Virus record (IMG/VR): IMGVR_UViG_3300033155_001152
Location: 1-64,000 of that record
DNA length: 64,000 nucleotides
Source of the DNA: a virus
Direction: 5' to 3' (one strand)
Part shown: in pieces, positions 5,251 through 47,332 of the stretch
Numbering within the stretch: the stretch's first letter is position 1
Layout of the letters: each line of letters opens with the position of its first letter
Translations under genes and position numbers: made by a program
The notes under the pieces: model-generated
What the model was told of the DNA's origin: nothing
Seen by the model: only the letters and a program-made list of their open reading frames with translations
Database searches by the model: none

Positions 5251-5474
5251 ATTGTGCCGTCCTCTTCAAGTTCTCTGATATGCCGAGCGCCAGTTACGAC
5301 GCCTACAATAATACTTTCGACCCATTCCATTGCGGTGATTTCGTCAGCCAGCCAGATAGAGGCCACGTTCAGCGGCATTAAATCTTGCGCTGATTCCTCT
5401 GCCGCTTCGATGTCACCACAGTCGCACAGGTCGTACATGATTCCATCGCTGCCTAATGCAAAGTAGCGACTCAT
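5247..5474 (-). CDS. Hypothetical acidic protein (75 aa)
   Basis: A 75-residue acidic protein (MSRYFALGSDGIMYDLCDCG...). The ATG overlaps the stop of the upstream gene (ATGA), which decides the start against a much longer frame that would lie across the neighbour. Contains a CDC motif near the N-terminus. Function unknown. Confidence 0.65.
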   Translation of the reverse strand: MSRYFALGSDGIMYDLCDCGDIEAAEESAQDLMPLNVASIWLADEITAMEWVESIIVGVVTGARHIRELEEDGTI

Positions 5475-5734
5475 TTGAGGACACGAAGTAAATTTACGCA
5501 CTCGTTGTAGGCACCATTTAACATGCCGCTTTTCTTGCGTAATTCTTCGCCTCCAATCTCGCCGTCGCAGCACAGATTCTCTGGCGACAGGTCGCACTCG
5601 ATGTTGTCGAGCATCGAAAGAGCCTCTTTCTTTGTGGTAGGCATTTCCAACGAATTCACTTTGCTGCTGGGAAACAGGTTGCGCCATTTGTTTTGGCTTT
5701 CGATGTACGCCTTCAAGTTGATGTTGTCTGTCAT
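5471..5734 (-). CDS. Hypothetical protein (87 aa)
   Basis: An 87-residue helical protein starting MTDNINLKAYIESQNKW, with an AAAGGA site seven bases before the ATG. It has a CC pair in its middle but no clear metal site. First of a coupled run of three genes ending at the lipoprotein. Confidence 0.7.
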   Translation of the reverse strand: MTDNINLKAYIESQNKWRNLFPSSKVNSLEMPTTKKEALSMLDNIECDLSPENLCCDGEIGGEELRKKSGMLNGAYNECVNLLRVLK

Positions 5735-5753
5735 AATTTATCCTTTTATTAGC

Positions 5754-5918
5754 TCAGTCTATTAAAAAATCAAGACCTGAATCAATCGGTACACAAGTGA
5801 GATTAGGCAATTCCAAATAATACCCATCTACACCACCTATTGGATCGGCAAAAGCATAGCCACCTGGAATGCGATAGAAGCAATATCCTAAGCGTATTAG
5901 TTTTTTAATGAGATGCAT
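5754..5918 (-). CDS. Small hypothetical protein (54 aa)
   Basis: A 54-residue frame preceded by GAGGT six bases before ATG. The product begins MHLIKKLIRLGYCFYRIPGG and looks like a compact beta-type peptide (YAFADPIGGVDGYYLELPNL). The good ribosome-binding site and the position between two genes support it. No homologue recognised. Confidence 0.6.
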   Translation of the reverse strand: MHLIKKLIRLGYCFYRIPGGYAFADPIGGVDGYYLELPNLTCVPIDSGLDFLID

Positions 5919-5928
5919 AATTCAACCT

Positions 5929-6126
5929 CTAGCTGTGAGTGTAGCCGTCTGGTTCGATTCCCAACCACATGCCTGCCCAACGTACCATGATGCAATTACA
6001 TCCTTGTTGGACTGTGCGCCTAAATTGACGATACGATAATTCAGTGCCGTTGCAGCCTCTAATGACTGGCGACTCTCTATCAAATACCTTCTTGAGCGCC
6101 ACCCTTTGTTCTCGTGTTAGGTTCAT
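5929..6126 (-). CDS. Small basic hypothetical protein (65 aa)
   Basis: A 65-residue protein (MNLTREQRVALKKVFDRE...). I chose the second ATG of the frame because GAGG lies eight bases ahead of it. It contains two cysteines (RGCNG, GCNC) and a Trp-rich C-terminus. Function unknown. Confidence 0.6.
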   Translation of the reverse strand: MNLTREQRVALKKVFDRESPVIRGCNGTELSYRQFRRTVQQGCNCIMVRWAGMWLGIEPDGYTHS

Positions 6127-10904: not shown

Positions 10905-10960
10905 AATTAAATCCTCTTTCTGGTTTGTATTCCTGACTGTTCCAGCCAGACCGTGAGCAT

Positions 10961-10986
10961 ACTATAGCCCCGATAATACACTCCTA
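10961..10986 (-). promoter_or_regulatory. Promoter, TAGGAGTG / TATAGT class
   Basis: TAGGAGTG (10979-10986) and TATAGTAT (-10 at 10961-10966) on the minus strand with the same 12-base gap as the site at 9331-9356. It lies about 57 bases upstream of the ATG at 10904, with AGAGG before that start. Confidence 0.6.
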
Positions 10987-11083
10987 CAACCATCCCCGTA
11001 GGAAGTATCCGAGCCACCTAATTGGCTTTTTCGCATATATAAGATGATGGTCAAGTATCATGGCAGCACCAATCCTACAAGAA

Positions 11084-11125
11084 GCACAGCACAATAACCT
11101 AGTGAGCGCACAACACAATAACCTA
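11084..11125 (-). repeat. Two direct repeats, 18 bp, period 24
   Basis: On the minus strand TAGGTTATTGTGTTGTGC (11108-11125) and TAGGTTATTGTGCTGTGC (11084-11101) differ at one base and lie 24 bp apart, about two helical turns. This is the geometry of paired protein-binding sites upstream of the promoter at 10961. They may be operator or replication-initiator sites. Confidence 0.65.
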
Positions 11126-11254
11126 AAAATGGTACGAGCAGGCTTTGGCCTGCTTTTCGTCGGCCCAAACGCAGGCTGTGGCCTGACGCCTAGGTGATTG
11201 CAAATGCAAGCATAGACGGTCGTAAGAGGGCTTAATGACTGCCTTTCTGGTCAT
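11123..11254 (-). CDS. Doubtful small protein (43 aa)
   Basis: A 43-codon frame beginning MTRKAVIKPSYDRLCLHLQS with AAGGGG nine bases ahead. It spans the near-repeat GCAGGCTtTGGCCTGC / GCAGGCTgTGGCCTGA, which gives an internal repeat RQATAC / KQAKAC in the product. It may be a real peptide or chance in a regulatory region. Confidence 0.3.
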   Translation of the reverse strand: MTRKAVIKPSYDRLCLHLQSPRRQATACVWADEKQAKACSYHF

Positions 11255-11545
11255 TAGCGATATCCCCTTGACCTATTCATTTGTCGGGCAGAACCTTTCC
11301 GATGCCTTTCTCCTATAGAAAAATGCCGAGCCGAATCTAGCACTCGAGCCGTTTCTATATACACGTATGTGAATTTGTGAGGATATTTCTGGAATTCACG
11401 AATGTCGTGAATTATGGCACTAAATGTACACCCCAGGATTGAGTCTTGGCTGTCTCAGATCGCCCAGAGCGAATAGTCGGGGTCTTTGGCTTGTGCTGGT
11501 ATCGATTGAATATGCGGATCGCTTAGATCGACGCTGGTTAAAATT

Positions 11546-11636
11546 GGCGGGGATCGAGACAGTCGGAGGTGGTGACTGCCCAGACTTTTCCGACGAGAGC
11601 GGTCACTCTCGTTAGTCTGGCGAACTCGATCCCGCC
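11546..11636 (-). ncRNA. Structured RNA element, three-way junction
   Basis: About 90 bases fold into one nested structure. A 12-bp closing helix (GGCGGG-ATCGAG with CTCGAT-CCCGCC, one bulged base) spans 11546-11558 and 11625-11636. Inside are two arms. One is CAGTC / GACTG (11560-11564 with 11574-11578), whose loop reads ACCACCTCC on the minus strand. The other is CAGACT / AGTCTG (11581-11586 with 11613-11618) topped by ACGAGAG / CTCTCGT (11592-11598 with 11605-11611). An extended -10 promoter (11704-11709) on the minus strand lies about 70 bases upstream, and AATTTTAACC follows the structure. The strand is inferred from that promoter. The ACCUCC loop resembles the anti-Shine-Dalgarno sequence of 16S rRNA. 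It could be a regulatory RNA, or a DNA-level cruciform of an origin. Confidence 0.5.
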
Positions 11637-11671
11637 GTTGGTGCAATCGTTTCTGTCATTGTTGTCCTGAA

Positions 11672-11766
11672 AGTATCGTTGCATCAAGATCGTTATCAAA
11701 AATATTATAGCAGCTAATTCATAGCCTTATGAGGAAGTATCGTCAGGAATATCGTTACATTTTTGT
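11672..11766. repeat. Iteron-like repeats (AAGTATCGT family)
   Basis: Four related words occur within about 95 bases on the plus strand: AAGTATCGTTGCATC, AAGATCGTTATC, GAAGTATCGTCAGG and GAATATCGTTACAT. They flank the AT-rich promoter region. Repeats of this kind bind initiator proteins in phage and plasmid origins. The similarity is imperfect, so this is a candidate only. Confidence 0.4.
11704..11712 (-). promoter_or_regulatory. Extended -10 promoter upstream of structured RNA
   Basis: TGCTATAAT on the minus strand, a perfect extended -10 hexamer. No clear -35 box is visible, as expected for extended -10 sites. The first element downstream on this strand is the folded region 11636-11546. 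About 11260-11540 holds no convincing gene. Confidence 0.5.
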
Positions 11767-11862
11767 TAGAAAAACCGTCTAGTTTTTCGTGCGACTTTCT
11801 GGACAGAATCCTGGCGACATTCTCTTTTAGCTAAGTATAAGGTAATATGTGGGTGGTGTGGC

Positions 11863-11891
11863 CCCCAGGCCGAGCGAAGAAAGACTGGTCC
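11863..11891 (-). promoter_or_regulatory. Two-box element, copy B
   Basis: GGACCAGTC (11883-11891), 11 bases, then GGCCTGGGG (11863-11871) on the minus strand. The same boxes with the same spacing occur at 45307-45335. Both copies begin within one base of a gene's stop codon. The role is unknown; it could be a phage-specific promoter or operator. Confidence 0.5.
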
Positions 11892-12297: not shown

Positions 12298-12735
12298 GTT
12301 GTCCCCGGCTTTTGGTGACAAGGCAGCTTCCAATTGGAAAGCTGGCCGGGGCCTCGAAGGATTAAGCTGCCATCGCTAGAGGCTGGAACGAATCCATACC
12401 TACAAACTCTGACATATCTGCTTCTTCCTCGACAAACTGTTCGTTTGCTTTTACTTTAGAGGCGGTTACGCCGCTTACGCGAGTCGTCTTCCGTGATTCC
12501 GTATACCATGTCGAAACCGATCACCCCCATCAAAAACTGTCTGTCCGGATTTCGGGTCAATTGGCAGCGACCCTATCCTGTTGCTGCTTCTATTGCTTCA
12601 ACCTTGCCAAAGATGAAACTCAAAGTGACTAACTCGACAAACAGCTTATGGTGGAGGTGGCGGGAATCGAACCCGCGTCCACAATACCTACTAACACAGC
12701 CTCAAACGACCATAAGTTTCCAACGAATTCATTCT
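12298..12735 (-). ncRNA. ssrA: Transfer-messenger RNA, circularly permuted (two-piece)
   Basis: Transcribed right to left. The acceptor piece comes first and ends in a T-arm GCGGG-TTCGATT-CCCGC (12660-12676), acceptor strand CACCTCC, A and CCA (12649-12659). After a 120-base spacer (12529-12648) the coding piece begins GGGGGTGATCGGTTTCGACA at 12528. GGGGGTG pairs with CACCTCC over seven base pairs including the G3-U70 wobble, the alanyl-tRNA synthetase identity element. CATGGTAT (12503-12510) pairs with GTATTGTG (12680-12687) as helix P2. The tag frame runs from a GCA resume codon at 12448 to TAA at 12362, encoding 28 residues that begin ANEQFVEE and end QPLAMAA. An H-type pseudoknot (CCCCGGC/GCCGGGG crossed by TTGTC/GACAA) follows. 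The outer ends are approximate. Permuted ssrA is typical of Alphaproteobacteria, cyanobacteria and a few Betaproteobacteria. Confidence 0.9.
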
Positions 12736-15940: not shown

Positions 15941-16176
15941 TACTGCCCTCCCTCTATTTTTAATCCGCTTTCCATCTCTGGCATCTCAGCAGATATTAGC
16001 TCAAATACTTCTCGTCCTACAAGTCCACTGACTGTCATAAACAACGCCTGTTGGCCTATGAATAGCTGTGCGTCAGTTATCTCTCCAGCCTCGTGCTTTT
16101 CCAACAACCATACAGCCGTGTCGAGTGCTTTCCGCTCGATCTCTTCTCGTATGCTTGGGAACTCAGACTTAGGCAT
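15940..16176 (-). CDS. Hypothetical helical protein (78 aa)
   Basis: A 78-residue helical protein (MPKSEFPSIREEIERKALDTAVWLLEK...). The chosen ATG has AAGGA nine bases ahead and overlaps the end of the RNA ligase gene; a longer frame would run far into the ligase. Coupled by TAGTG to the next gene. Function unknown. Confidence 0.65.
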   Translation of the reverse strand: MPKSEFPSIREEIERKALDTAVWLLEKHEAGEITDAQLFIGQQALFMTVSGLVGREVFELISAEMPEMESGLKIEGGQ

Positions 16177-16834
16177 TGATAAAGTCCTTGCCTTTAATCT
16201 TTGTGATGACGCGAGAGCCGAATCGATTACGTAACTCCACTTGCGGTCGTGCCACAAAACCCTCGAGCGGTAGGCGTGTCGATGACAGCAGAGACTCACA
16301 GGCTGGATATTCTTTCAGCTTTTTGTAGCCGTTCATCAACGTGTTCGTGAAGATGACAGGCACACAAGGAATGCCAAGTTGATGAGCGATATCCTCTACA
16401 CTAGATCGCTCAAGCCATATTCCTAATGGATGATTCTCGCAAGGCTCCACGAACACATCGAACAGAATGAACCTTTGCTCGTCGCCATATAGCTTTGACA
16501 TCTTCTGAATCTTGCCGCCGAACCCTTCGCCAATGAGAGTAATGCTACCAGCACCTTGAAAGACTGAGCTTAGCCTGGCGTCGGTGAAATGATCCTGCAA
16601 GTGTATAAGCAACTGCCCTGGAAGCTGCGCTCTATCACTACGACCGCCAAAGCGAACGCCATTACCATCCCAGCCGATACGAATGTTTGTACCGTCGACC
16701 TTCTCTGTGAAGTCCCACGGAACATTCTGGAGAATTTCGAACGCTGGATCGCTGAACTTACCTTCTATAAAGGACTTGTAGTTATTCTCCGGGTCGCGAT
16801 AAAATATCGACTGGATTTTATGATACGTCTGCAT
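16169..16834 (-). CDS. RNA ligase, Rnl2-like
   Basis: A 221-residue nucleotidyltransferase. Motif I KVDGTNIRI gives the adenylated lysine (Lys45), LEGFVARP (190-197) is motif IV, and KIKGKDF (212-218) is motif V. This is the compact catalytic core of Rnl2-type RNA ligases, which seal 3'-OH/5'-phosphate ends in RNA; no extra C-terminal domain is present. In T4-like systems such ligases repair cleaved tRNA. This genome also carries tRNA and tmRNA genes. It has its own extended -10 promoter (16873) and GGAG before ATG. Confidence 0.85.
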   Translation of the reverse strand: MQTYHKIQSIFYRDPENNYKSFIEGKFSDPAFEILQNVPWDFTEKVDGTNIRIGWDGNGVRFGGRSDRAQLPGQLLIHLQDHFTDARLSSVFQGAGSITLIGEGFGGKIQKMSKLYGDEQRFILFDVFVEPCENHPLGIWLERSSVEDIAHQLGIPCVPVIFTNTLMNGYKKLKEYPACESLLSSTRLPLEGFVARPQVELRNRFGSRVITKIKGKDFINA

Positions 16835-41615: not shown

Positions 41616-41693
41616 TGGTAGTGAGGGGTGGACTCGAACCACCGACCAACGGGTTATAAGCCACGCTGCTCTAACCTGCTGAGCTACCCCACC
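41616..41693 (-). tRNA. tRNA-Ile (anticodon UAU)
   Basis: Acceptor GGTGGGG pairs with CCTCACT (two G-U pairs), the D-arm is GCTC/GAGC, the T-arm GGTGG-TTCGAGT-CCACC, and A-CCA is encoded. The anticodon loop CTTATAA gives UAU, reading AUA. The anticodon stem contains one extra base: it pairs only if a U is bulged (GCG-U-GG with CCCGT). It starts eight bases after the ligase stop. Confidence 0.85.
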
Positions 41694-47001: not shown

Positions 47002-47078
47002 TGGTTGGCTCGGTAGGAATCGAACCTACAACCTCTCGCGTATCAGGCGAACGCTCTAACCAAATGAGCTACGAGCCA
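47002..47078 (-). tRNA. tRNA-Ile (anticodon GAU)
   Basis: Acceptor TGGCTCG / CGAGCCA, D-arm GCTC/GAGC, anticodon stem TTCGC/GCGAG with loop CTGATAC (GAU), T-arm GTAGG-TTCGATT-CCTAC, discriminator A and encoded CCA. All stems pair well. It is the last of three tRNA genes in the cluster after the helicase gene. Confidence 0.9.
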
Positions 47079-47175: not shown

Positions 47176-47251
47176 TGGTGCCGAATCGAGGAGTCGAACC
47201 CCGGACAAACTGCTTACAAGGCAGTTGCTCTACCAACTGAGCTAATTCGGC
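47176..47251 (-). tRNA. tRNA-Thr (anticodon UGU)
   Basis: Acceptor GCCGAAT / ATTCGGC, D-arm GCTC/GAGC, anticodon stem ACTGC/GCAGT with loop CTTGTAA (UGU), T-arm CGGGG-TTCGACT-CCTCG, A and encoded CCA. A canonical 76-base tRNA reading ACA and related codons. Confidence 0.92.
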
Positions 47252-47257
47252 GAAATT

Positions 47258-47332
47258 TGGTTGGTCGGGTAGGGCTCGAACCTACAACCTCCGTAGTACA
47301 ACACGGGCTCTGCCAATTGGAGCTACCGACCA
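47258..47332 (-). tRNA. tRNA-like gene with short anticodon arm
   Basis: Acceptor TGGTCGG / CCGACCA, D-arm GCTC/GAGC, T-arm GTAGG-TTCGAGC-CCTAC, A and encoded CCA are intact. The anticodon arm is two bases short: CCGT / ACGG with loop GTTGTACT, and no base 26. The anticodon is ambiguous (UGU if the purine after it is A37, or GUA). It begins immediately after the helicase stop codon. Confidence 0.65.

Follow-up and report, generated by a model that had tools for sequence, protein, structure and literature searches.

tmRNA is the RNA that releases stalled ribosomes and adds a tag to the incomplete proteins they carry. The tmRNA genes of mycobacteriophage Bxz1 and Bacillus phage G are one-piece and not permuted. 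Like the gene described here, both are phage-borne ssrA genes (PMC4131195). A two-piece tmRNA of the phage Melnitz was published in 2022, and in the accompanying survey of 402 phages 53 of the 133 unique tmRNA structures were two-piece, with 50 of the 53 derived from marine or aquatic samples (PMC9004378). The tmRNA database of 2025 holds 79 phage sequences and introduced the model RF04321 (PMC11915505). In Methylophilales phage Melnitz and Pelagibacter phage Mosig (MT647606.1), as in the present case, a complete permuted ssrA is carried by a tailed phage. The Melnitz tmRNA is alpha-type according to the published tree (PMC9004378), and alpha_tmRNA is the best clade model for Mosig, whereas the beta model is nearest here. 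Melnitz has a glutamine riboswitch, whereas a search for riboswitches in the spacer or leader of the present gene gave zero Rfam matches. The Mosig tag comprises 9 amino acids compared with 28 here. The earlier note had considered that a permuted tmRNA in a phage might be novel. This did not hold, because a phage example was already published in 2022 (PMC9004378) and the form is frequent in viral contigs, where a single narrow pattern recovered at least dozens of permuted tmRNAs. The kind is already known, and the gene reported here is a new, somewhat unusual example.

A permuted ssrA gene on the minus strand

Positions 12711-12303 on the minus strand of the window (the whole stretch of 64,000 nucleotides that was analyzed) were confirmed as the circularly permuted ssrA (two-piece tmRNA) gene of a phage; the ends assigned before, 12298-12735, were roughly right. 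RF04321 (tmRNA_permuted) matched 12711-12362 over all 213 model positions with 110.4 bits (E 1.1e-20 for the 64-kb window), far above the gathering cut-off of 47 bits, so that a two-piece model match, proposed as a check in the earlier note, was obtained. An independent ARAGORN prediction places a permuted tmRNA at 12741-12271 and gives ANEQFVEEEADMSEFVGMDSFQPLAMAA as its tag. In the full virus record of 104,236 bases, RF04321 matched the tmRNA gene at 12711-12362 and no other site. The following parts were assigned, all on the minus strand.

12649-12711, minus: acceptor piece (T arm plus acceptor 3' half, CCA encoded), from the RF04321 alignment and motif positions; 12711 is the start of the model match, and the mature 5' end is uncertain
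12660-12676, minus: T arm GCGGG TTCGATT CCCGC, 5 bp, from motif positions and comparison of permuted tmRNAs
12649-12659, minus: acceptor 3' half CACCTCC, discriminator A and CCA tail, from motif positions
12529-12648, minus: intervening sequence of 120 nt with a 12-bp end helix, from folding and shuffles; removal from the mature RNA is proposed by analogy
12644-12636 with 12545-12537, minus: spacer helix strands CUGUUUGUC and GACAGACAG, part of the 12-bp helix
12303-12528, minus: coding piece, from ARAGORN, RF04321, beta_tmRNA and motif positions; the mature 3' end is uncertain
12522-12528, minus: acceptor 5' half GGGGGTG, 7 bp with CACCTCC including G3-U70, from motif positions and comparison of permuted tmRNAs
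12510-12518, minus: D-arm motif GGTTTCGAC, from the RF04321 alignment
12482-12487, minus: outer P2 helix, coding-piece strand ACGACT with its partner near 12711-12706, from the RF04321 alignment and motif positions
12362-12448, minus: tag reading frame of 28 amino acids plus TAA with resume codon GCA, from ARAGORN and translation
12303-12371, minus: predicted H-type pseudoknot around the stop codon, from dinucleotide shuffles
12371-12364 with 12329-12322, minus: pseudoknot stem of 8 pairs, GGCAGCUU with AAGCUGCC
12351-12345 with 12309-12303, minus: pseudoknot stem of 7 pairs, CCCCGGC with GCCGGGG

On the minus strand, the CCA-ended acceptor piece (CCA at 12651-12649) lies upstream of the 120-nt spacer and of the coding piece, which begins at 12528 with GGGGGTG (12528-12522). 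The permuted order claimed in the earlier note was thus recovered from the motif positions, RF04321 and ARAGORN alike. The tRNA-like domain is complete, with a T arm, a D-arm motif and the alanine identity pair G3-U70; the latter lies in the seven-base-pair acceptor stem CACCTCC/GGGGGTG, where a G-U at position 3 had been noted. The P2 helix, which the earlier note could draw, was reproduced in the RF04321 alignment with zero P2 pairs flagged as non-standard. The alanine resume codon was located as GCA at 12448-12446, and the reading frame ends in the hydrophobic LAMAA, as had been read, with the stop codon at 12364-12362. The stem of PK1, before the resume codon, contains non-standard pairing in the RF04321 alignment. 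Promoter and terminator sites at the tmRNA gene were no commoner than in shuffled sequences.

In the comparison with the clade models, also suggested earlier, the alpha, beta and cyano models matched only below their respective cut-offs. The best was beta_tmRNA (RF01850) with 66.4 bits (cut-off 84), followed by alpha with 42.2 bits (cut-off 50) and cyano with 32.7 bits (cut-off 70). The betaproteobacterial two-piece tmRNA is therefore the nearest of the three, at a score below its curated cut-off, and relative to the RF01850 model the present gene has a longer spacer and a predicted pseudoknot at the stop codon. Four other viral examples (L005, L032, L084 and L097, including Xanthomonas phage Rb1) are likewise nearest to beta and below the beta cut-off. 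BLAST against all loci fetched to that point gave similarity confined to brief, conserved parts of the tRNA-like domain, and no close DNA relative of this tmRNA gene was found among the loci compared. A scan of viral contigs with the exact pattern of the coding-piece start yielded zero matches. When genome contigs were scanned for a T arm, acceptor and spacer length identical to those here, the sole match was a standard one-piece tmRNA of Nitrospinota; its downstream match was taken as chance, and this candidate was rejected.

Covariation and the folded spacer

The earlier note had named covariation of the acceptor halves in related phages as a check. The comparison covered 38 distinct permuted tmRNAs, taken from phages and viral contigs. 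Acceptor pair 5-68 was G-C in 35, A-U in 2 and C-G in 1; most of the 38 sequences were found by a pattern that fixes the acceptor, so that for the acceptor the information comes from the isolates L003, L005 (PQ569993.1) and L006 (MZ593728.1). Stenotrophomonas phage BUCTxx99 provided an additional A-U case at this pair. For the T stem, both sides were changed in 4 of 5 pairs in the same set. Phage permuted tmRNAs thereby show covariation at acceptor pair 5-68 and in the T stem, so that the check came out in favor of the pairing, with the comparison made across distant phages and no near relative found.

The spacer folds with -36.8 kcal/mol (z -3.0), and its 12-bp closing helix was better than those of 200 of 200 shuffles. 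A closing helix is also present in most other phage permuted tmRNAs. The length of 120 nt was considered as an unusual feature and rejected, because the spacers of the other phage permuted tmRNAs compared range from 26 to 134 nt, though for most of these the search pattern itself required 105-135 nt. The predicted pseudoknot around the stop codon (8 + 7 pairs) was equalled by 1 of 500 dinucleotide shuffles of a region that was picked after inspection. No near homologue in which its covariation could be followed was present among the relatives found. The strongly acidic 28-amino-acid tag and the predicted pseudoknot at the tag end are left as the individual features of this gene.

Proposed function and the tag peptide

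The gene is most probably a functional-looking permuted ssrA of a tailed phage, whose RNA would be split into two pieces, receive alanine and serve in tagging at stalled ribosomes via host factors. This is the best explanation because of the full-length RF04321 match together with ARAGORN, the complete set of elements, the covariation, the spacer helix and the surrounding phage genes. It is weakened by the lack of a close homologue, which makes selection on the gene unmeasurable, by the sub-cut-off clade scores and the non-standard PK1 pairing, and further by the long tag ending in MAA and by the other phages of the group, which are mostly without the gene.

The proposed steps of two-piece cutting, alanine charging and ribosome rescue follow established two-piece tmRNA biology. 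A single precursor transcript would be expressed, in which the spacer folds on the 12-bp helix continuing the acceptor stem. The spacer would then be excised by host tRNA-processing enzymes, leaving an acceptor and a coding piece joined through base pairing in the acceptor and P2 helices. G3-U70 would direct charging by the host alanyl-tRNA synthetase, and host SmpB and EF-Tu would deliver the RNA where ribosomes have stalled on a broken mRNA. Translation would resume at GCA and add the 28-amino-acid tag ending in LAMAA, most likely for ClpXP-type proteolysis by the host. The phage would benefit from ribosomes kept free during infection.

No match to SmpB or SspB was obtained in the phage record, which may be incomplete; on this record, host factors would be needed. 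The gene adds a clear example of a phage equipped with a ribosome-rescue RNA of its own and apparently dependent on host SmpB. An RtcB and an RNA-ligase-domain protein are also encoded (L163:12473-13747, plus strand, and window 16169-16834, minus strand). Both would suit a phage that tends RNA and translation, with a putative tie to the tmRNA, and together with the tmRNA and the tRNAs they suggest RNA repair or protection during infection.

The fate of the tagged proteins was considered separately. The tag has 7 acidic and 0 basic residues, and the tags of other phage permuted tmRNAs with a start at the usual distance comprise 8-16 amino acids. Tags of 29-30 amino acids in L043 and L049 were rejected as long-tag parallels, their predicted resume codons lying 141-152 nt into the coding piece versus 66-97 nt. 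The MAA ending in place of LAA and the length far above 8-16 amino acids make proteolysis a less secure prediction than with a standard tag. A long tag of special function, retargeting or protecting the tagged proteins instead of sending them to standard proteolysis, would fit this length, acidity and ending, but we regard it as unlikely, as the hydrophobic-Ala-Ala end resembles degradation tags and no phage adaptor was seen (no SspB match in the record; the look for proteases was less than exhaustive). Similarly doubtful is a phage-adapted permuted tmRNA subtype outside the three bacterial clades, in which the unusually long acidic tag and the stop-codon pseudoknot would help the phage by altering how the tag is made or what becomes of tagged proteins. 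With its long tag, the gene lends itself to a simple test for phage retuning of trans-translation.

A decaying or inactive permuted ssrA captured from a host would account for the sporadic presence in the phage group, the sub-threshold clade scores, the non-standard PK1 pairing and the long, odd tag. However, all essentials are intact, namely 7 acceptor pairs with G3-U70, 5 T-stem pairs, CCA, P2, resume codon, open frame and closed spacer, and so divergent a dead gene should have lost some of them; decay is accordingly judged very unlikely. An RNA that reduces trans-translation in the host by competing for its SmpB, comparable to the form of mycobacteriophage DS6A with only the tRNA-like domain, is highly improbable: in E. 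coli, expression of a tag-less phage form does inhibit tmRNA (PMC11915505, PMC4131195) and the record has no SmpB match, but DS6A is without a tag frame, whereas the resume codon, 28-amino-acid frame and stop kept here would be needless for a decoy.

The phage and its relatives

The record carries phage polymerase, tail, portal, head and lysozyme genes, which identify it as a viral genome. It encodes a DnaE-type polymerase, ribonucleotide reductase, SbcC/SbcD, CobS/CobT-like proteins, DNA ligase, helicase and tape measure, as well as major head, scaffold and portal proteins and two ParB-like proteins. The polymerase is ~41% identical to those of Nickievirus and Rhizobium phages, 34% to that of SSU5 and ~42% to a protein encoded on 110-117 kb plasmids of Acinetobacter baumannii. 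The two ParB-like genes and the plasmid relatives hint at a phage-plasmid lifestyle, and a plasmid-like lysogenic state is possible. The ParB-like genes are adjacent (L163:4369-5049 and 5412-6056, minus strand).

RF04321 gave 0 matches in 18 polymerase relatives from viral contigs, many of them fragments, and a match in 1 of 12 annotated phage and plasmid relatives tested, BUCTxx99. Because of these counts, the tmRNA gene seems to come and go within the phage group. BUCTxx99 (OR529408.1) is a distant relative by its DNA polymerase (41%) and CobT, and its permuted tmRNA near 98584-98909 is unannotated in the record. It shares with the present gene the permuted order, the G3-U70 acceptor and the broad phage group, but has a spacer of 4 nt versus 120 nt and the tag ANDDVYVVALAA of 12 versus 28 amino acids. 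The spacer between CCA and GGGGATG (L156, about 2165-2190) consists only of CTAC, very short compared with 26-134 nt elsewhere. The present gene shows that the permuted form also occurs outside the Melnitz-type marine myophages, its phage being a distant relation of SSU5, nickie and the Acinetobacter plasmids of 110-117 kb.

Unannotated permuted tmRNAs were also seen in Alcaligenes, Xanthomonas and Acinetobacter phages (OK149171.2, L004; PQ569993.1; MZ593728.1). Public phage records still miss such genes, as BUCTxx99, QDWS595, Rb1 and BUCT628 carry unannotated ones. Xanthomonas, Acinetobacter and Stenotrophomonas hosts probably have one-piece tmRNA, so that phage and host forms would differ.

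No relatives of the gene upstream of the tmRNA were found by the search. Downstream of the tmRNA and its small neighbor genes, ~1 kb of the window (10905-11890) holds no convincing minus-strand genes and only short, poorly supported open reading frames. ARAGORN also predicted tRNA genes on the minus strand of the window, at 41616-41693, 47002-47078, 47176-47251 and 47258-47332. These comprise Ile (GAT), Thr (TGT) and two with odd anticodons, one of four bases (TATA) and one of two (GT).
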